37,964 nt of DNA from Bacillota bacterium (lineage in GTDB: Bacteria > Bacillota > Limnochordia > DUMW01), in the NCBI GenBank assembly GCA_012839765.1, contig DUMW01000089.1, positions 1 to 37,964 of the forward strand, in the 5' to 3' direction. Shown in pieces: positions 12,703-22,688 of the stretch. Position 1 is the stretch's first letter; the number at the start of each line of letters is the position of its first letter. The notes under the pieces are model-generated. The model did not search any database. It was not told the origin of the DNA and saw only the letters and a list, made by a program, of their open reading frames with translations. The translations under genes were made by a program, and so were the position numbers.

Positions 12703-12786
12703 GTGAGCTTACCAGTGGTGGGGCGTCGGCTTTCCAGACCGGCGCCCGCCCAAGACACCGAAACTGATTTCCACGGAGGTACGAAG

Positions 12787-14667
12787 ATGACGCGCTTTAT
12801 GGCCATATTGTTGCTTATCCTTCTTTTGAAAGTGTCCCCGGTGGCAGCCGCGACCACTCCGGTCTTGCCTAAGTTAGATCCGGTGGACCTTGGTACCCTC
12901 CGCCGGGACACCATCGATTTCACTCCCCTGGAGCTAGAGCGAAATGTCCTCCGGTACTATCTGGGTTTGGAAGAGGCGGTGAACCGCATGGCAGATTCCG
13001 GGGAGTACCTGGGTTGGACCAGGATTCCTTCTCGGAATGATGAGCCCTACAATGCCCGGAACCAGGAATTGCTTTTGCTTTACAGCTACTTCTTCACCGC
13101 GGATCGGCCCTGGAACCAGTATTACATGGACGAGGCCCTACTGAAACGGATCGAGGCGGGGCTGTTGTATTGGACTTCCCTTCAGACAGAACTGGGGGGT
13201 TTTTGCCAGTGGTCACCTACGGCGGGACAGTACGAACAGTGGTGTGTTGCCGCGTTGAACATGGAGCGGATCCTGCTGGGATATAAATTGTTGAAAGAGG
13301 CGGGGATTGAGCTTGCTCCCGAGGTGGAGGTCGCCTTTTACGATACCTGCAAGCGGGCGGTGGACTTTCTCTTAGCCCATCCCACCAATAACCGGTCCTG
13401 TGCTAACCAGATGGCCGGCGGCATGGTGGCGGTGGCCATGTTCATTGATGTGTTTGGGGAGACCCACCTACGGGATCAGTTGGATGAGATGATTGGGGCC
13501 TTTTTCGAAGTGGCCCAGAGTCCCGCGGGATACTACTACGAAGCGATGGGACCGTGTCTTGCCTACGGGTTTCACGTTACCGACGGTTCCCTGCGGACCC
13601 TTTATCTTATGACTAAGGATCCGCGGATCCTCGAAGGACACCGGGCCTTCTACCGGTTCATGTCCTACAACATGCTGTGGGAGCCTGCGGGCAATGGGTT
13701 TATCAATAACCGTTCCCTCTCCTCCCGGCAGGAGTTTCCCACCTACACACCGGGGTTACGGGCTTGGTATGATGAGATCCCTTTGGCTGCGGCCTTCGGC
13801 AAACCGGCCACTGCTCTGCCTTCACCCACGGAACTGCAGAACCCGCTGCGTTTTGCCACTCCCCGGCAAGTCTTCGGTCCCACCGGGATCTGGCGGCCGC
13901 TCACCATCAACTGGGGAAGTCCCGGAGATATCCTTGCGCTCCTAACCCATGGGGAATACGCGCTTACCCCGGAGATGGTGGCGGAGCAGCGTCAGGAGCT
14001 GCCCTATCTAAAAAGCGATCGCTTCACGGTGTTCTTGCATGATCCCCAGGAGAACGCCGAGTTTCTCTATGTGCGCCGTCCCGACTACTACTTTAGCTTC
14101 GCTGGGGGCAGACGGCGGGAGAACCAGCGCATGGGCCCAGCCTCCCTTTGGCATCCGCAGCTGGGTACCATCCTCTGGTCTAGTCGTATTGATCAGCCCA
14201 ACATGGCCTGGAGCACCTGGAGCGATGTCTTCGGTGTAGAAAGGGCCCTGGAGGAATTCGATATTATCACCGAGTACTTTACGGTATCGGGGGAAAAGGT
14301 GGCCAATCCTGAAGCAACCTCGGATTTCCACGGGTTCACATACTACGTACCCGGTGCCGCGGTGTCGGCGGTGAAGACGGTGCGGTTTGCCGAAAGGGAA
14401 GTAACCTTCCAGGTGACTGCCCGCGGCAGCCTCAGGGAAACGGTGCCCCTCTTGGTGGCCGAGGGGGATGATGTGGTTTTGGAAGGGATACCCGGGGCCT
14501 ATGAACTACGGTACCTACGGGGAGGCGAGGTAGTCTTCCGGATCCAGTTCGACGGTGCCCTGGAATGTTCCCTCAGGGACACGGGAGACAGCTACTTAGG
14601 CAAGCGCCTCAAGGTGGTTACGCTATGGGCCCAGGATGAGCTGAACTATACCGTTCAGTTCGATTGA
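12787..14667 (+). CDS. Secreted polysaccharide-lyase-like protein
   Basis: A 626-residue exported protein. ATG 12787, six bases after GGAGGT, gives a clean signal peptide (MAILLLILLLKVSPVAAA); an upstream in-frame GTG at 12703 would spoil it. The N-terminal ~330 residues are helical and toroid-like, with YYYEAMGPCLAYGFH near residue 260 resembling the Tyr/His sites of heparinase- and chondroitinase-type lyases. The C-terminal half looks beta-rich, as in PL8, PL12 and PL21 enzymes. I cannot assign a family or substrate. It follows the solute-binding protein, so it probably releases oligosaccharides for that receptor. A glycoside hydrolase of similar fold is possible. Confidence 0.6.
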   Translation: MTRFMAILLLILLLKVSPVAAATTPVLPKLDPVDLGTLRRDTIDFTPLELERNVLRYYLGLEEAVNRMADSGEYLGWTRIPSRNDEPYNARNQELLLLYSYFFTADRPWNQYYMDEALLKRIEAGLLYWTSLQTELGGFCQWSPTAGQYEQWCVAALNMERILLGYKLLKEAGIELAPEVEVAFYDTCKRAVDFLLAHPTNNRSCANQMAGGMVAVAMFIDVFGETHLRDQLDEMIGAFFEVAQSPAGYYYEAMGPCLAYGFHVTDGSLRTLYLMTKDPRILEGHRAFYRFMSYNMLWEPAGNGFINNRSLSSRQEFPTYTPGLRAWYDEIPLAAAFGKPATALPSPTELQNPLRFATPRQVFGPTGIWRPLTINWGSPGDILALLTHGEYALTPEMVAEQRQELPYLKSDRFTVFLHDPQENAEFLYVRRPDYYFSFAGGRRRENQRMGPASLWHPQLGTILWSSRIDQPNMAWSTWSDVFGVERALEEFDIITEYFTVSGEKVANPEATSDFHGFTYYVPGAAVSAVKTVRFAEREVTFQVTARGSLRETVPLLVAEGDDVVLEGIPGAYELRYLRGGEVVFRIQFDGALECSLRDTGDSYLGKRLKVVTLWAQDELNYTVQFD

Positions 14668-14815: not shown

Positions 14816-16000
14816 TCAGGATTGATTGACCAAAAGGTATGTTTCCCGGGCGATGACCAGTTCTTCGTCGGTGGGGATCACCAGGACGCTGACTGGACCA
14901 TGATCGGGGGAAATCAGGCAATCCTTTGCGGCTTCCCGATTGCGCTCAGGATCGATCATGATCCCCAAAAACTCAAGACCTGCACAGATCTGTGTCCGCA
15001 GGGTGGGGGACTTTTCTCCTAGGCCGCCGCTGAAGACTAAAACATCGATACCCCCCATTGCCGCCGCATAGGCCCCGATATACTTCCGGCATCGATGGGT
15101 GAAGGCTTCGATCGCCAGCTGGGCCTGGCGATGACCCGCCCGGGCTGCGGCCTCTACTTCCCGCATGTCATTGCTCACCTGGGAGATGCCCAGCCAGCCT
15201 GATTCCCTGTTCAAGATCTCGTCCATCTGCTGGGGGGTGAGTCCTTCCTTGCGCATGAGATAGGTCACCGCCAAGGGATCGATGTCTCCGCAGCGGGTGG
15301 ACTGGATCAATCCTTCGGTGGGAGTCAGTCCCGTACTTACTTCCACAGACTTCCCGCCTTTACAGGCATTGGCGGTGCAGCCGCTACCTAACATCAGGGA
15401 GACGATCTTCAGTTCCTCCAAGGGACGACCCAAAAGTTCTGCGGCCCGGGAGGTCATGTAATGGAAGGTGATCCCGTGAAACCCGTACTTCCGTACCCGA
15501 TACTTTTCATAATACCGGTAAGGGATCCCGTACAGATATGCGCTGGGAGCGAGGGTCTGGTTGAAGGCACTGTCGAAGACCCCCACCTGGGGTACTCCGG
15601 GAAAGAATTCTTCGCAAAGGCGAATGCCAAGGAGGTTCGGCGGATTATGTAAGGGGGCCAGCTCCGCATATTTCTCCAATGCGGCCTTCAGTCCTGCGTC
15701 CACGAAGGAGGGCTGGTAGTAGTCCTCGCCGCCGTGGACCAGGCGATGTCCGATCACATCGATGGTTCCAAGATCACCAAATTCCTTCGCTAGGATGTCG
15801 AGGGCAAACTGCAGTCCTGCCCGATGATCGGGGATGTCCAGTACCTGCTCGTATGTCTTCTCCTGGGAAGAGATCTCCACGGCGGCATCGGCCTTGCCCA
15901 ATCTGGAGACGGAACCCTGGATGACCACCGTTTCTTCGGGCAGGTCGAAGACCTTGAACTTGATGGATGAACCGCCGCAATTGAGTACGAAGATGCGCAT
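14816..16000 (-). CDS. ackA: Acetate/propionate kinase homologue of the microcompartment operon
   Basis: A 394-residue acetate-kinase-family protein that would turn an acyl phosphate plus ADP into acid plus ATP, the last step after PduL. Family motifs are NCGGSSIKF (residues 7-15), HRLVHGG (85-91), APLHNPPN (115-122), YGFHG (172-176), TRCGDIDP (235-242) and DEELVIARE near the end. It is divergent: the usual HGTSH is HGITF, and the usual CHLGNG loop is LMLGSG, so the equivalents of M. thermophila His184 and His208 are Phe179 and Met203 and the loop Asn is Ser206. It is the last gene of the operon, 18 bases after the BMC-T gene. The substrate may be lactyl or propionyl phosphate rather than acetyl phosphate (inference). 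Confidence 0.88.
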   Translation of the reverse strand: MRIFVLNCGGSSIKFKVFDLPEETVVIQGSVSRLGKADAAVEISSQEKTYEQVLDIPDHRAGLQFALDILAKEFGDLGTIDVIGHRLVHGGEDYYQPSFVDAGLKAALEKYAELAPLHNPPNLLGIRLCEEFFPGVPQVGVFDSAFNQTLAPSAYLYGIPYRYYEKYRVRKYGFHGITFHYMTSRAAELLGRPLEELKIVSLMLGSGCTANACKGGKSVEVSTGLTPTEGLIQSTRCGDIDPLAVTYLMRKEGLTPQQMDEILNRESGWLGISQVSNDMREVEAAARAGHRQAQLAIEAFTHRCRKYIGAYAAAMGGIDVLVFSGGLGEKSPTLRTQICAGLEFLGIMIDPERNREAAKDCLISPDHGPVSVLVIPTDEELVIARETYLLVNQS

Positions 16001-16018
16001 GAGAGCCTCCTCCTTTAT

Positions 16019-16567
16019 CTAGACGAGCTGTTTCCACAGTTGGGGATCCGGAGCGGCAATGACCGCATGTTCCAATAGGACTCCCTGTTCTCGGGCAAAG
16101 GCCGCCGCCTTTTCTGTGGCCAAGGTCACCGAGGCCACGTCACCGGTGAAGTAGACGAAGGATTTGCCACCTAAGCCTCGGGCCAGACGAATCTCGATGA
16201 GGGCCACATCTGCAGCTTTCGCCGCGGCATCCGCGGCCAGGATAGCTGCGGCGATGGTATAGGTCTCGATGATCCCCAGGGCCTTTAGCTCCTTCACCTG
16301 GGTGCTGGCTGTCAGGGCCGGAAACACCCCGGGATGTAGCCGGGCCAATAAAAGTTCATCGACGATGGCCTCGGCGCCTTGAGCTTTGGCGGCATCCAAG
16401 GCCGCCTGGATGCTGGCCACATCACCGGAAAAAAGAATAATGAACTTCCCCGGGCAGACGGGCATGGCGGTGATCAATTCCACCTGGGAAGTCTTACAGA
16501 TGGTGTCCGCAAGCACTACCCCCCGGGTGACGTTCTGCACTTCCACTAAACCAAGGGCTTTATGCAT
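16019..16567 (-). CDS. pduT: BMC-T shell protein, PduT-like
   Basis: A 182-residue tandem-domain microcompartment shell protein. Two BMC domains are visible, each starting with a GLVE/GIIE-type strand (residues 6-10 and about 97-101) and each with a GDVASV-type segment. Cys38 lies in VCPGKF, the position and motif that in PduT binds a [4Fe-4S] cluster at the trimer pore, so an electron-conducting pore is likely. The start ATG 16567 overlaps the PduS-like stop by 8 bases, which implies coupling. PduT and PduS are known partners, and here they are adjacent. Confidence 0.93.
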   Translation of the reverse strand: MHKALGLVEVQNVTRGVVLADTICKTSQVELITAMPVCPGKFIILFSGDVASIQAALDAAKAQGAEAIVDELLLARLHPGVFPALTASTQVKELKALGIIETYTIAAAILAADAAAKAADVALIEIRLARGLGGKSFVYFTGDVASVTLATEKAAAFAREQGVLLEHAVIAAPDPQLWKQLV

Positions 16568-17912
16568 CTAATGCACCCCCTTCGGCCCGGAGAATGATCT
16601 CCGGATGGATGCTCACGACGGTGCCGGAGATGCTGGCGTGCAACGGTGCTCCTAAACTTTCCGCCGGAAGGGTGGCCACCACATCTCCCTGGGAGACCTT
16701 GTCCCCTACCTGCACGGTGGCCCTTGCCGGCTGCCCGATATGTTGCTTCAAAGGCAGACGTACCTCCGCCGGTTGGAAGCTCAGCGGGGTGAGGGGGGCA
16801 GGGACATCCCATTCCGCCAGACCCAAGCGCTGGATGAGCCGGGCGGTGGGTACCCGGCGGTACGGTTGCTCCCTGCGGGCGTGCTCTACTTGGTTTCGAT
16901 GGGAGTTCTTCATTCCTTGGGCGGTCATTTGCCCCTTCAACATGATGTGGACGGCCCGTGGGCTTAGCCCCATGGGGCAGGCGTAGGCGTCGCAAACGCC
17001 GCACTCGGAGCAGAGGAACGCCTGGGTGATGGCTTTAGTATCGAAGGCCTTGCCATAGGCCACCGCGGTCATGGACTGATGTGGTTGCAGGTCGTGACCC
17101 AACAGGTACCGAGGACACAGATCCGTACACTGCCGACATGTGCAGCAGACAGACATGGCCCGGCGGATGGCCGCGGCCTGATCCACCTGTTTATACTTTA
17201 ACAGTGGGTGGTGGGCCGGTACCAGGATCAGCGCCTTGGTGGTCTTCGTCACTGGATCCTGTTGGGAGACGATCTTGCCCATCATGGGTCCTCCATCGAT
17301 GATTACCCCGTCGGTGCAGGTGGGACCGGCCTCCCTTAAGACCTCACCAATGGCGGTGCCTACGGGAACCTTTAAGGTCATCGGCTTTTTAACAGCCCCC
17401 GTGACCGTAAGGTAAGAAGCGGTGACCGGTTGATCCTGTAGGGCATGGTAGATATTCAACAAAGTCTCCACATTAATGACCACGGCTCCCACCTGTAGGG
17501 GAATACCGCCTTCGGGCACCACGGCACCCAGAACTTCGTAAACCAGGACCTGCTCATCCCCGGCGGGGTAAAAGCTATCCAATTCCACAAGGGACCAATC
17601 GGACAAGGAAGCCAAATGTGGCTTGAGGGCGGCAATGGCCCTTTGGTACTGCTTTTTGAGGGCGAAGTAACCCCTGGTTGCACCCAAGTGCTTTTGCACT
17701 TGCTGGGCTGCCTCCACCAATTCCCGGGGAAAGGCCGCCATCAACTCCTGGTCCACGCGGATTAACGGTTCACACTCCACACCGTTGATGATCAGATGCT
17801 TCACCTGGGTATTCAGCTTAACGTGGGTGGGAAAGCCCGCACCGCCGGCTCCCACCACACCGGCCCGTTTCACTTTTTCCAACAGAACCATGGCCATAGC
17901 AGTACGGCGCAA
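16560..17912 (-). CDS. pduS: PduS-like flavin/Fe-S electron-transfer protein (RnfC family)
   Basis: An RnfC-type NADH-linked electron carrier like PduS. It has the N-terminal Gly-rich motif VVGAGGAGFPTHVK, a central SLBB-like region, two 4Fe-4S motifs (CCTCRQCTDLCP and CSECGVCDAYACP) and a C-terminal barrel-sandwich segment. PduS was first described as a cobalamin reductase, but no B12 enzyme is encoded here, so a role in recycling NADH through PduT is more likely (inference). The frame is open up to TTG 17948. I prefer TTG 17912 (SD AAGGAG nine bases before) or ATG 17897, since family members start just before LLEKVKRAG. A hairpin covers this start. Confidence 0.88.
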   Translation of the reverse strand: MRRTAMAMVLLEKVKRAGVVGAGGAGFPTHVKLNTQVKHLIINGVECEPLIRVDQELMAAFPRELVEAAQQVQKHLGATRGYFALKKQYQRAIAALKPHLASLSDWSLVELDSFYPAGDEQVLVYEVLGAVVPEGGIPLQVGAVVINVETLLNIYHALQDQPVTASYLTVTGAVKKPMTLKVPVGTAIGEVLREAGPTCTDGVIIDGGPMMGKIVSQQDPVTKTTKALILVPAHHPLLKYKQVDQAAAIRRAMSVCCTCRQCTDLCPRYLLGHDLQPHQSMTAVAYGKAFDTKAITQAFLCSECGVCDAYACPMGLSPRAVHIMLKGQMTAQGMKNSHRNQVEHARREQPYRRVPTARLIQRLGLAEWDVPAPLTPLSFQPAEVRLPLKQHIGQPARATVQVGDKVSQGDVVATLPAESLGAPLHASISGTVVSIHPEIILRAEGGALDA

Positions 17913-17932
17913 GGAGGTGAGCTCCTTGCGCC
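17906..17932 (-). promoter_or_regulatory. Hairpin masking the pduS ribosome site
   Basis: GGCGCAAGGAG and CTCCTTGCGCC form a perfect 11-bp stem with a 5-base loop. Read on the - strand, one arm holds AAGGAG and the other holds the candidate TTG start, so the hairpin could block initiation. It has no T-tract and is not a terminator. Confidence 0.6.
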
Positions 17933-17957
17933 TTCCACCTTTCTCCAAGATTAATCC

Positions 17958-19364
17958 CTAGGCCAACTTCAATGCTCCGTTAATGGTCAGACGATGTTCT
18001 CTGGTAAAGTGCTTTGCGGTGACGATCCCTTCACCGGTGGGATCCGCAATGGTATGGGCAAATTCCGCGGCACCGCCCACACCCAGGGCTGCCCCCGAAG
18101 GACCGTTGGCCACCGTCAGACCCGTGCGCAAGCGCTGGGTGAACCGGGTAATCCGTTGGATATCCCGGGAATGGATCACGGCCGTATGGCCCATCCTTTG
18201 CTCGGCTTTCACCGCCATATCCAGCGCATCGTCAAAATCCCGGGCCCGTACGATGGGGATGACCGGCAACATCTGCTCGATCATCACCAGGGGGTGGGAG
18301 AAATCTGTTTCAAAGGCCACCAAACGGACCTCGGGACCCACCTGGATGCCGATTTCCCCCAGGATTCGCTCCGGATTTTGGCCCACCAGTTCCCGGTTAA
18401 TATGTCCATCTTCTACCAGGATCTTGGTCAGCTGCTCGATTTGTTGTTTGTCCCGGAGGATATAGGTATTGGTCTTGGACAATTCCTGCATGAATTGATC
18501 GAACACCGCTTCCACCACGAAGACTTCTTTCTCGGCGATACACAGGATGTTGTTGTCGAAGCTGGCCCCGGCCACGATGTCTCGGGCCGCCTGGGTCAGA
18601 TCTGCGGTCTCGTCCACCACCACCGGGGGATTGCCTGGTCCGGCCACGATGGCCTTCTTGCCACAACTGAGGGCCATCTTAACCACCCCGGCCCCGCCCG
18701 CGGCGGTGATCAGGCTCGTCAGCGGATGGGCACAGGCCGCGTTTACCGCGTCCATACTAACGTGATCGAGCACCGTGAGCAGATCCGCCGGTCCGCCGGC
18801 CTCTACGATGGCCTTGTTTAGCACCGTGATGGCGGTGCGGGTGCATTTTTCCGCCCGAGGATGGGGGCAGAAAAAGACAGCATTTCCTCCCGCCAGCATG
18901 ATAATGGCATGGTTGATCACAAAGGGCGTGGGGTGGGTGGTGGGTAGGATGGAGACGATGACCCCAAAGGGGACTCGTTCGATAATAGTGACTCCCTCAT
19001 CACCACCGATGACCCTATGCTCCAAAACCTCCATGCCCGGTGACAGGGTGGCGGCATTGATGTTCTTTTGGATCTTGTCTTCGTATCGACCGAGGCGGGT
19101 CTCTTCATGGGTGATCCGGGCAAAGTACTGGGCGTTGTCGATCCCGGCTTGCCGGATGGCCTCGATGATCTTCTTACGTTTAGCCAAGGAGAGCCCAGAA
19201 AACTCCCGCTGGGCCTGGGCGGCCCGGGTAAGGGCCTCGTCCACCGTAGGATAGACCCCCAGCCCTTCTGCAGCCGGCTTGGGAGTGGCCTGGGGCTGAC
19301 CAGACTTCAGGCTGGCTACCACTTGTTCCACAATTGAGGCGATTCTTCTTTCATCAATCTGCAT
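17958..19364 (-). CDS. CoA-acylating aldehyde dehydrogenase (PduP/EutE type)
   Basis: A 468-residue enzyme of the PduP/EutE family that oxidises an aldehyde with NAD+ and CoA to acyl-CoA inside the microcompartment lumen. The catalytic Cys275 lies in NNILCIAEKE, and the family motifs GAGVVK and AGPGNPP are present. The N-terminal helix DERRIASIVEQVVASLK followed by a Pro/Ala-rich linker is a typical encapsulation peptide. With the class II aldolase upstream, lactaldehyde is the likeliest substrate, giving lactyl-CoA; propionaldehyde or acetaldehyde cannot be excluded. It follows pduL after a hairpin-containing gap. Confidence 0.93.
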   Translation of the reverse strand: MQIDERRIASIVEQVVASLKSGQPQATPKPAAEGLGVYPTVDEALTRAAQAQREFSGLSLAKRKKIIEAIRQAGIDNAQYFARITHEETRLGRYEDKIQKNINAATLSPGMEVLEHRVIGGDEGVTIIERVPFGVIVSILPTTHPTPFVINHAIIMLAGGNAVFFCPHPRAEKCTRTAITVLNKAIVEAGGPADLLTVLDHVSMDAVNAACAHPLTSLITAAGGAGVVKMALSCGKKAIVAGPGNPPVVVDETADLTQAARDIVAGASFDNNILCIAEKEVFVVEAVFDQFMQELSKTNTYILRDKQQIEQLTKILVEDGHINRELVGQNPERILGEIGIQVGPEVRLVAFETDFSHPLVMIEQMLPVIPIVRARDFDDALDMAVKAEQRMGHTAVIHSRDIQRITRFTQRLRTGLTVANGPSGAALGVGGAAEFAHTIADPTGEGIVTAKHFTREHRLTINGALKLA

Positions 19365-19452
19365 GTTCTCTTCACCGCTTTCCGGTAAGAAACGACGGTT
19401 TGGTTCACCTCCCCGTTAGGGAAAATGGATGCAGTTATCCCTGGTACGGAAT

Positions 19453-19486
19453 ATCCTCCGGGAAAGCCGGTCATCTCCCGGAGGAT
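19453..19486 (-). other. Intercistronic hairpin at the pduL stop
   Basis: ATCCTCCGGGA (19453-19463) and TCCCGGAGGAT (19476-19486) form a perfect 11-bp stem with a 12-base loop that spans the pduL stop codon. There is no T-tract on the - strand, so it is more likely an mRNA-stability or processing element than a terminator. Confidence 0.6.
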
Positions 19487-20142
19487 GGACGTACAATTCT
19501 ACATATGGCTCCACAATTAATTCCTGCCGCGTTGGCATCGTCGGTGTCTAGGTGCACCTGGAGGCGGAAGGAATCCTTCACCCGCACTTGCACGTTGCGG
19601 AAGACCAAGGACTTCTCGCCCGTGACTTCCAGCTCCACCAAGTCATTGTCCTTCACCCCAAAGCGTATCGCATCGGCGGTACTCATATGGACATGCCGGT
19701 TGGCGACGATGCATCCCTCGGGCAGGGTCAGCGCACCCGCCGGGCCGATCAAGGTGATCCCTGCGGAACCGGCCAGATCCCCTGAGGGGCGTACCGGTGG
19801 ATTGATGCCCAGGAAGATGGCGTCGGTCCGGGAGACCTCCACTTGGGTACGGTCCCGCATAGGTCCCAGGATCCGAACGTTCTCGATGGACCGCATTCGC
19901 GGGCCCACCAGGGCCACCGTTTCCTTGGCGGCAAATTCCCCCGGTTGATACAGATCCCTCAGCTTATGTAACGTAGCGCCGGGGCCGTAGAGGATCTCCA
20001 GATCCCGCTGGCAGATGTGCACATGTCGCACCGATACGCCCACGGGAATGGAGTCTTCCTCAGGGGTCGAGGATTTTCCATTGGCCTGCAGGATGGAGAG
20101 TACCCGTTGGGTGATGGTTTCAACTAACTGTCTCTCATCCAT
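19471..20142 (-). CDS. pduL: PduL-type phosphotransacylase
   Basis: A 223-residue phosphate propanoyltransferase that exchanges CoA for phosphate on acyl-CoA, recycling CoA in the lumen and making the acyl phosphate used by the kinase. The PduL zinc-site motifs are VRHVHI (38-43), NRHVHM (148-153) and LQVHLDTDDANAA (194-206). The N-terminal helix DERQLVETITQRVLSIL before a Ser/Pro-rich linker matches a PduL encapsulation peptide. It lies between the shell genes and the aldehyde dehydrogenase, with hairpins on both sides. Confidence 0.95.
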   Translation of the reverse strand: MDERQLVETITQRVLSILQANGKSSTPEEDSIPVGVSVRHVHICQRDLEILYGPGATLHKLRDLYQPGEFAAKETVALVGPRMRSIENVRILGPMRDRTQVEVSRTDAIFLGINPPVRPSGDLAGSAGITLIGPAGALTLPEGCIVANRHVHMSTADAIRFGVKDNDLVELEVTGEKSLVFRNVQVRVKDSFRLQVHLDTDDANAAGINCGAICRIVRPSSGR

Positions 20143-20168
20143 CGGGATCCCACCTTTACTCGCGTATT

Positions 20169-20193
20169 CCTCCCTGCCCTGTTAGCAGGGAGG
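20169..20193 (-). other. Intercistronic hairpin between BMC-H and pduL
   Basis: CCTCCCTGC (20169-20177) and GCAGGGAGG (20185-20193) form a perfect 9-bp stem with a 7-base loop. There is no T-tract downstream on the - strand. It may protect the upstream shell-protein message. Confidence 0.55.
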
Positions 20194-20218
20194 TTTGGTC
20201 CCTCGCCGAAGCTTTTCC

Positions 20219-20512
20219 CTACTTCTTGGCCGGTTGTTCGAGATTAGGCAGGATCTTCTCTACGTCGTCATGGGGACGCGGAATGACATGGGTCGCCACG
20301 ATCTCGCCCAGTTTCTCCGCGGCCGCAGCGCCCGCATCCACAGCAGCCCGTACGGCACCCACTTCACCCCGGACCATGACGGTCACAAAGCCGCTACCGA
20401 TCTTCTCATAGCCCATTAGTACCACATTAGCTGCCTTGACCATGGTGTCTGCCGCTTCGATGGCTGCCACCAAACCACGTGTCTCGATTAATCCCAATGC
20501 ATTACCTGCCAT
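20219..20512 (-). CDS. BMC-H shell protein, PduA/PduJ-like
   Basis: A 97-residue single-domain hexameric shell protein. It has the canonical N-terminus [20 protein letters not shown] and the canonical pore segment [21 protein letters not shown]-like (KIGSG at the pore), so it should form the main facet hexamer with a small polar pore. A 15-residue tail ends in Pro and Lys. It lies 24 bases after the other BMC-H gene and, given the canonical pore, is probably the major shell component. Confidence 0.95.
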
Positions 20513-20536
20513 TTAAAGATAGCCTCCTTTGTTCTT

Positions 20537-20812
20537 CTACTTGCGTAGTAGTTTACTGACTTCCGTTGCGGGCCGTGCCAGCACCCGATAAGCATAAACA
20601 GAACTCACTTTGTTTGCCGAGGCCACCGCTGCCTCGCAGGCGGCCTGTACCGCGGACACATCGCCCTCGATGCGGACCACCAGGCGACCGCCGCCGTTGG
20701 CCTTTTCAAAACCGATTAAGGTCACATCGGCAGTTTTCAGGGCCACGTCTGCCGCTTCCAGACAACCGGCCCAACCCACTGCTTCGATGAGACCCACTGC
20801 CTTCTGCGCCAT
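20537..20812 (-). CDS. BMC-H shell protein with atypical pore loop
   Basis: A 91-residue single-domain shell protein (AVGLIEAVGWAGCLEAADVAL at the start, EGDVSAVQAACEAA later). The pore loop reads KANGGGRLV where the canonical protein downstream has KIGSGFV, so the pore is Gly-rich and carries an Arg. This could change metabolite selectivity. It is encoded first of the two shell genes, 119 bases after the aldolase gene. Confidence 0.93.
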   Translation of the reverse strand: MAQKAVGLIEAVGWAGCLEAADVALKTADVTLIGFEKANGGGRLVVRIEGDVSAVQAACEAAVASANKVSSVYAYRVLARPATEVSKLLRK

Positions 20813-20931
20813 GGGTCACTTCCTCTCCAAAACAGAACCTAAGGGACGATCAAGATCGGTTTCCCGTGGTGAACCTCCCTTCTGGCCGTGATTCTCGGCA
20901 GGAGAAATCGGGTTTCACCTGTATATGAGGT

Positions 20932-21732
20932 TCAACCGGCTTTTCCGGCCTCTTCCTGTAGCACTTGGTGGGTTACCCTGGTGATGAGTTCCACCAGCTG
21001 ACCTTCGTCGATGTCCGCCGGGGGATTGGTGTTGTGGCAATTGCCCTGTACGCTGCAGGCGCCACAGTCCATGCAACCGGGATGGCGACCGGGGACGTTC
21101 ATTTCTTCCCGCAGTTCAATGAGCCTGCGCACATTTTCCGGTGCCAGGGCTCGTTCGCCACCCAACAGCCGGGCCAACAAGCTGATCTTGGCATAAAGCT
21201 CCAGGGTTTCCATTTTGAAATAGGCGTTTTCCAAGCTGACCCCCACGGTCACCGCTCCGTGGTTTTCCAGCAGGATGGCATCATGGTTTTCCAAATGCTC
21301 GCCAATCGCCCGGGGGATCTCATCGGTGGAAGGGGTCCCGTACTTGGCGATGGGGATCCAGCCGAGGCTGATGATCACCTCGGGGATCGTCGGCGTTTTC
21401 AAGGGAATTCCCGCCACCGCAAAGGCCGTGGCCGTTGGGGGATGGGCATGAACTACCGCATTCACATCTGGCCGCTGCCTATAGACTGCCAGGTGCATTT
21501 TCAGTTCGGAAGACGGGCGCATTTTTCCGGAAATGACATTACCGTCCAAATCCACCTTGACCAGCATGTCAGGGGTCATGAAGCCTTTGCTGACACCGGT
21601 GGGGGTGGTAATTACCTGGTTTTCGCTCACTCTTACGCTGATATTACCATCGTTGGCGGCCACGTATCCGTTGTTATAGATCCGTTTGCCAATGTCTACT
21701 ATTTGGCGTTTGATTTCATATTCAGAAGTCAC
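20932..21732 (-). CDS. Class II aldolase with encapsulation peptide (fuculose/rhamnulose-1-phosphate type)
   Basis: A 266-residue AraD/FucA-family aldolase. The zinc ligands Glu76, His95, His97 and His158 match FucA (73, 92, 94, 155) with a constant offset. FucA-type enzymes cleave L-fuculose-1-phosphate to DHAP and L-lactaldehyde. The C-terminus is extended: a Cys cluster (220, 223, 226, 232) and then a helix, DEGQLVELITRVTHQVLQEE, that looks like an encapsulation peptide. As first gene of the operon it defines the likely cargo chemistry. The GTG start 21732 follows GGAGGG. Class II aldolases of this kind occur in the fucose/rhamnose microcompartments of planctomycetes and Clostridium phytofermentans. 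The exact sugar is inference. Confidence 0.9.
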   Translation of the reverse strand: MTSEYEIKRQIVDIGKRIYNNGYVAANDGNISVRVSENQVITTPTGVSKGFMTPDMLVKVDLDGNVISGKMRPSSELKMHLAVYRQRPDVNAVVHAHPPTATAFAVAGIPLKTPTIPEVIISLGWIPIAKYGTPSTDEIPRAIGEHLENHDAILLENHGAVTVGVSLENAYFKMETLELYAKISLLARLLGGERALAPENVRRLIELREEMNVPGRHPGCMDCGACSVQGNCHNTNPPADIDEGQLVELITRVTHQVLQEEAGKAG

Positions 21733-21908
21733 AACGCGCCCTCCTCGGATCTGTTTTTATCTTGTTTTTCTTTGGTTATTTTTTGGTTTCAGAAAGGTAT
21801 TCGTGATTCAGGGGCAATATCCTGCTTAATGGGGAAGAAAATCTGCGGAAAAAGGTTCATTCTCCCGGTAAAGGGCGGCGTGTCCTCCGGAAAGGGGGAG
21901 GAACAGTG

Positions 21909-22688
21909 CTATTCCTCCTCCTGTTGGGCCCGGAAGGCATAAAGTTCCCAAAGGATCTTTTGGAATATTTCCCAGCTGGCTTCCGGGTACTCGGTCTGGG
22001 CATGGATGGCAAAGAAACGTCCTTCGGAGAAGGGAAGACCGTAAACGGAACCTTCCCATATCCCTAGGGTTTCGGGATCGAGGACCGCGGACAGTTCTGG
22101 ATCCCTGGCCAGATACTCGTCCAGGTTCAAAAGCAGGCCATGTTCAGCAAAAAGGTCCAGATCCTCGCCCCGCATGACGAAAAGATCAGGCACGTCCCGG
22201 GCTCCGATGAGGACCACTAGCTTCTGATCGTAGACCCGCGCATCGAGGTTTTGCCAGCGGAGGAAAAGGTCTTCGCGCTTGTTGTTAAAATCGGTTACCA
22301 CCCGGGTGAGTACCTGTTCTTCGGGGTAAGGTAAGACCGTGGTCATCATCTCCAGAACCTTTCGATCGCCGAGCTTTGGCGAGTTGAAGTAACTGATGAG
22401 CACCACCAGGACCAGGACGAGGCCGAGCATAGCGAAGATGGTAAGGCGGTAACGCCGCTGGTTTTGCTCTGCTTCCCTGAGAAGCTGTTGTCTTTTCTCC
22501 TGGTCCTGCCGGACGGTAGCCGCCAACTCTTTGCAGCCGATCGCGGCACAACCCCCGCGGCTTTCCCAACAGGACCGATGGTGCGGCTTCTTGCAGCGGG
22601 GACACAAAAACTCCTCTTCCGGAGCGATGGGTTGATGACAGGCAATACAGTTTCGTTTGTGCGGGTGGTTTGTTTGCTCCCTGTCCAC
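21909..22688 (-). CDS. RING-like finger, membrane anchor and partial solute-binding domain
   Basis: An unusual 259-residue protein. Residues 13-52 form a prokaryotic RING-like finger (CIAC, CPRC, HHRSCW, GGC, GC). A charged, coiled-coil-like stretch follows (about 55-80), then one transmembrane helix (about 82-101). The rest resembles the N-terminal lobe of a family-1 sugar-binding protein (VPDLFVMRGEDLDLFAEHGL, LNLDEYL, GLPFSEGRFF) but ends before the second lobe. I take GTG 22688 as start: AAAGGAGGTGA lies five bases upstream, and the longer frame to 22814 lacks a ribosome site. The function is unknown; sensing or tethering at the membrane is possible. It is co-oriented with the microcompartment operon but separated from it by 176 bases. 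Confidence 0.7.
   Translation of the reverse strand: MDREQTNHPHKRNCIACHQPIAPEEEFLCPRCKKPHHRSCWESRGGCAAIGCKELAATVRQDQEKRQQLLREAEQNQRRYRLTIFAMLGLVLVLVVLISYFNSPKLGDRKVLEMMTTVLPYPEEQVLTRVVTDFNNKREDLFLRWQNLDARVYDQKLVVLIGARDVPDLFVMRGEDLDLFAEHGLLLNLDEYLARDPELSAVLDPETLGIWEGSVYGLPFSEGRFFAIHAQTEYPEASWEIFQKILWELYAFRAQQEEE

Follow-up and report, generated by a model that had tools for sequence, protein, structure and literature searches.

The finger, the helix and the topology of the protein

The window, the whole 37,964-nucleotide stretch of DNA from a Bacillota bacterium that was analysed, carries on its reverse strand a gene whose product joins a RING-like zinc finger, a single membrane helix, and one lobe of a solute-binding protein. 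An earlier note had described this architecture at 21909-22688, and Pfam, hydropathy, and profile matches confirm it. The 259-residue open reading frame starts at a GTG codon at 22688 with AAAGGAGGTG just upstream as a strong ribosome-binding site, which bears out the start given in that note. The features of the locus are the following.

21909..22688, minus strand: gene for the RING finger, transmembrane helix, and single binding-protein lobe (259 aa, GTG start)
22524..22658, minus strand: Prok-RING_1 two-zinc finger, residues about 11-55 (Pfam PF14446; predicted ligands C14, C17, C29, C32, H37, C40, C47, C52)
22389..22445, minus strand: transmembrane helix, residues 82-100, finger side inside (hydropathy, flanking charge, AlphaFold2 helix)
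22007..22361, minus strand: residues about 110-227, the main stretch of lobe I of a family-1 sugar-binding protein, which ends at a YGLP motif (Pfam SBP_bac_1; profile matches to solved binding proteins)
21936..22006, minus strand: residues about 228-251, the returning segment of lobe I, following on directly at the point where full proteins have lobe II (C-terminal profile match in PDB; co-linear domain in full-length proteins)
21846..21922, minus strand: hairpins at and past the stop codon, a possible transcript end ahead of the microcompartment operon, tentatively assigned from consensus and folding

The gene has a divergent malic enzyme gene on one side and a microcompartment operon on the other; none of the relatives examined shares this arrangement. 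The operon (14816-21732, minus strand) begins 176 nt past the stop of the studied gene and encodes a class II aldolase, two BMC shell proteins, a PduL phosphate propanoyltransferase, an aldehyde dehydrogenase, a PduS-like protein, a tandem-BMC protein, and acetate kinase. A functional link to this operon was considered and rejected, since no examined relative lies near such genes and the hairpins lie between. Also in the window is a 654-aa open reading frame (12703-14667, plus strand) with no Pfam match at E 1e-5.

The finger is assigned from its sequence to the Prok-RING_1 type (PF14446), which matches residues 11-49 with 33.5 bits against a curated cut-off of 29.1 (E 3.9e-8); it need not be a ubiquitin-type RING. 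The pattern is that of a C4HC3 treble clef (CxxC-CxxC-HxxC-C-C), and the eight ligands of the binuclear treble-clef finger, for which zinc binding itself is predicted, are invariant in 28 of 28 aligned relatives. Prok-RING_1 proteins as known (Burroughs, Iyer and Aravind 2011) have in common with the window protein the zinc-ligand pattern, the N-terminal position of the finger, and a transmembrane helix after it. In Bacillus FZB42, a 61-aa protein with a characteristic transmembrane domain has been described as belonging to RING family 1 (PMC4029887). Unlike the helix of known Prok-RING_1 proteins, the helix here leads into a binding-protein lobe that is most probably extracellular. No description of such a fusion was found in the literature search, the scope of which did not extend to the Burroughs et al. 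2011 review. Within the class to which the window genome belongs, PF14446 occurs mostly in the RING-helix-lobe protein. Two other carriers were seen in the class, one with the finger and a single helix only (A2; L059-L062, 111-148 aa) and one with the finger, a zinc ribbon, and several helices (A3; L063-L065, ~320 aa).

As Prok-RING_1 is named for RING fingers, the protein could be pictured as an E3 ubiquitin-like ligase in which a receptor lobe outside the cell brings the finger to the membrane. This is very unlikely in light of the C4HC3 zinc spacing and the loss of the finger in relatives. Ubiquitin transfer is further disfavoured because none of 73 genomes of the class gave an E2 match (UQ_con, Prok-E2_B), an absence that is unproved as the controls were silent as well.

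The hydrophobic helix at residues 82-100 has a mean hydropathy of 2.7, and AlphaFold2, run on the single sequence, gives a long helix with a pLDDT of about 80-90. Six Lys or Arg residues lie in the 20 residues ahead of the helix and three after it, which favours a finger inside and a lobe outside. Independent support for an external lobe comes from finger-less relatives, in which the same lobe follows a lipoprotein signal. The earlier note had placed the finger in the cytosol and the lobe outside, and these two lines of evidence agree in strongly suggesting that topology. The single-sequence AlphaFold2 models are poor (pTM 0.38 and 0.56) and are not used for any structural claim; the second of them, itself weak, gave nothing significant when it was searched for similar folds.

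A single lobe joined at the hinge

The lobe is recognised most clearly through its family. For the window protein alone, Pfam SBP_bac_1 matches residues 127-227 with 25.1 bits, just below the cut-off of 26 (E 2.2e-5). A profile of 28 relatives searched against the PDB finds family-1 sugar-binding proteins and aligns with their N-terminal part (5f7v, E 2.9e-17; 6rjy, E 5e-16). Many solved CUT1-type binding proteins (5f7v, 6rjy, 4g68) are matched over the 100-130 residues at their N-terminus. Because the family profile matches solved family-1 proteins, the half binding protein is real.

The remainder of the chain accounts for the returning part of the same lobe. In 6rjy and 4g68, a second match, weak and co-linear, places the C-terminal end of the family protein at residues 301-348 of these binding proteins. 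When the last 31 columns are searched as a profile, the sole PDB chain at E <= 10 is a 440-residue binding protein, matched at residues 330-346 (E 0.0025), and the main segment matches this same chain at residues 71-172. Likewise, in five of five intact full-length binding proteins from the surveyed genomes, the match to the main segment stops at residue 157-186, and that to the C-terminal segment falls at 319-374. As both segments match co-linearly in full-length proteins, the chain leaves lobe I at the hinge and passes straight into the returning helix. By these alignments, lobe I is complete, including the returning helix, and lobe II is cleanly excised at the hinge. Roughly 150-190 residues of lobe II and the C-terminal remainder are absent, and the members all end shortly after the returning helix. 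The description of the lobe as "half" or truncated holds for the absence of lobe II and fails for a lobe cut short.

The window protein shares the lobe I sequence, returning helix included, with family-1 (CUT1) binding proteins such as 5f7v (Lmo0181), 6rjy (an arabino-oligosaccharide-binding protein), and 9xf5. It differs from them in lacking lobe II, and thus the two hinge-joined lobes. The finger form also has neither signal peptide nor lipoprotein anchor, with a finger and an internal helix instead, and genes of the window type are not found beside ABC permeases.

To our knowledge, natural single-lobe binding proteins are hardly known. RmSBP of Rhodothermus marinus (PDB 5Z6V) is a natural single-domain binding protein that is exported and has short homologues, and genes of its type are reported near chemoreceptor genes (PMC10805632). 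One lipoprotein relative of the present family (L128) likewise adjoins a chemoreceptor gene. The two types are nonetheless distinct. RmSBP resembles the C-terminal domain of tryptophan/phenylalanine-binding proteins (PMC10805632), whereas the lobe here is the N-lobe of CUT1 proteins; RmSBP has no finger or helix. The RmSBP type is a single exported alpha/beta domain, and here there is one lobe by sequence, the AlphaFold2 models being weak. RmSBP (5Z6V) is not among the PDB matches at E <= 1e-6.

Conservation and forms without the finger

Of 40 relatives whose whole genomes were searched, most carry the same three-part protein. A profile built from 28 family members (A1) was then used to search 73 genomes of the class, and 56 of these, spread over 11 families, carry one full-length copy each. 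Families f2, f7, f10, and f12 of the class yielded no full-length member with profile A1 among the 73 genomes. When the survey was widened to about 400 genomes across the phylum, it added one further full-length member, from another class (G238), and a search of genome contigs gave a single weak match in Asanoa. Homologues with the same domain order, which the earlier note had proposed to look for, are therefore present in 56 of the 73 class genomes and in G238. That note had also asked whether the second lobe is missing in all of them, and lobe II is missing in every family member found.

All parts of the protein are under purifying selection, as dN is well under dS in the finger, the linker, and the lobe. 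In these three regions, dN between close pairs is about 0.08-0.3 while dS runs from about 0.7 to saturation, giving a dN/dS of about 0.05-0.2. For the near-identical pair L039/L040, both dN and dS are far lower than in the other close pairs.

The same lobe also occurs without the finger. In genus g90 (six loci examined, L098-L103) and in genomes G218, G455, and G466, it is a short lipoprotein, with the signals LSMAGC, ILTGC, FVTGC, and ILTAC among these finger-less forms, and in G038 the lobe has a helix and no finger. The single lobe is thus found on three types of anchor, namely finger plus helix, helix only, and lipoprotein. The existence of lipoprotein forms indicates that the lobe works outside the membrane. 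In a tree of lobe I, the single-lobe proteins all lie on one side of one branch from the full-length binding proteins (support 99/96, recovered in 98% of bootstrap trees). This tree has about 100 columns, few full-length rows, and an unknown root, and row L044 and two long-branch rows were left out; it fits one origin of the single-lobe form, without proving it.

A whole lobe is missing and the Pfam score for the binding protein is just under its cut-off, as might be seen in a decaying fragment of a full-length binding-protein receptor. Such a reading is hardly credible, for the protein is conserved in 56 genomes and lacks lobe II in every one, the frames are intact, the zinc ligands are invariant, dN/dS is low, and the single-lobe forms group apart from the full-length ones. 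The suggestion that the gene is the remains of a full receptor, or a truncated pseudogene, is refuted by the broad conservation, the purifying selection, and the clean excision of lobe II. The RING-helix-lobe protein is an intact, conserved, working protein and not a broken leftover.

Gene neighbourhoods and a possible role at the envelope

The genes found next to members of the family suggest a connection with the cell envelope and, in one case, with a chemoreceptor. At ten loci in five families, a GT4 glycosyltransferase gene comes next on the same strand, about 10 nt past the stop of the family gene or overlapping it. The best NCBIfam match of this glycolipid-type glucosyltransferase is alpha-monoglucosyldiacylglycerol synthase, at E about 1e-56 to 1e-59 but well below the equivalog cut-off. 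In the window genome, the glycosyltransferase is not adjacent, a 42% identical copy lying on another contig. It is likewise not adjacent in several other families, and neighbourhoods vary by family. Because adjacency is missing in these genomes, the functional link may be lineage-specific or an inherited gene order.

Finger-less lipoprotein genes of several genomes lie among genes for FtsEX and cell-wall enzymes. In genus g90, transketolase precedes the lipoprotein gene, and ftsE, ftsX, M23/EnvC-like hydrolase, and ctpA come after it in that order. In G218 and G455, WecG/TagA and then transketolase precede the half binding protein, and ctpA and then polysaccharide deacetylase or its counterpart come after it. 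In these cell-wall clusters (L098-L103, L104, L127), split transketolase genes were observed just upstream of the lipoprotein genes. At the G466 locus (L128, 3576-5591), which has a yajC/lepB/secDF neighbourhood, a 156-aa single-lobe lipoprotein gene lies directly downstream of a chemoreceptor gene whose product has HAMP and MCP signalling domains. A conserved protein of ~442 aa was also seen near the RING-lobe gene in several families (L110 5852-7177, with counterparts in L032-L041, L046-L047, and L106-L116), and L110 5852-7177 has no Pfam or NCBIfam match. Neither ABC permeases nor a sugar-transporter operon was found among the annotated genes at the window and about 45 other loci.

Ordinary binding proteins close two lobes on a ligand, and the exposed face of their lobe I holds sugar and faces the permease. 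Whether one lobe could do the same is doubtful for small sugars, because isolated lobes of ribose-binding protein lose ligand binding. Single lobes made by engineering can fold by themselves and stop binding, until the other half joins them (PMC10601554). Such halves of ribose-binding protein, which keep their fold but not their function when isolated (PMC10601554, PMC9815098), are designed constructs of another binding-protein type. The loss of binding by engineered lobes, together with the lack of neighbouring ABC permeases, makes the lone lobe unlikely to be a classical importer subunit. The lobe could still be an accessory or decoy of ABC importers, taking the place of a full binding protein at their permeases and so altering uptake or passing regulation on to them. 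It is clearly of CUT1 origin, and full-length binding proteins are numerous in many of the carriers. However, it is never in an ABC importer operon at the loci inspected, and it is present also where full-length binding proteins are few, as in G009 and G046, for which the survey gave few first-look candidates. This role is improbable.

The anatomy of the family is firm in its domain order, excision, conservation, selection, absence of lobe II, and finger-less lipoproteins. The explanation that fits best, put forward tentatively as somewhat short of an even chance, is a single-pass envelope protein that acts as a membrane-spanning receptor or adaptor, with lobe I binding outside, the finger inside, and no role as an ABC carrier. 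Both segments of lobe II would have been removed at the hinge from a CUT1-type sugar-binding protein, and the resulting single-lobe protein would no longer be a substrate carrier for an ABC importer. On the outside, the exposed face of lobe I may recognise a glycan of the envelope or a partner protein; on the inside, the two-zinc finger may bind a partner of its own. Presumably, the lobe binds something, the finger is a protein-binding surface, and the two are coupled. A sensing and signalling role is possible; the analysis turned up neither a ligand nor a partner, and no signalling domain in the protein besides the finger.

Signalling could alternatively proceed through a homodimer, in which two protomers pair via their lobes into a flytrap-like cleft and ligand-driven pairing joins two cytosolic fingers to give a signal. 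The excised edge is the hinge, the gene is single-copy so that the partner lobe would have to be the same protein, and the engineered halves of a ribose-binding protein can come back together as a pair that binds (PMC10601554); permuted halves are reported to tend to dimerise (PMC9815098). Against this, the published reassembly is of two different halves and not of two copies of one, and the finger is dispensable in relatives. The homodimer is about as improbable as the accessory role. Slightly less likely again is an undescribed kind of transmembrane receptor, in which ligand-paired CUT1 lobes would unite finger adaptors as part of a widespread envelope-sensing module carried on finger and helix, bare helix, or lipid anchor.

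Under the preferred reading of an envelope receptor or adaptor, as under these alternatives, the family offers a concrete architecture for finding the role of prokaryotic RING fingers on membrane proteins. It is also a natural system for testing what one lobe does alone, a matter so far studied mainly with engineered halves. The family demonstrates that a sugar-binding protein can lose lobe II cleanly, with the remainder kept under selection on three membrane anchors.
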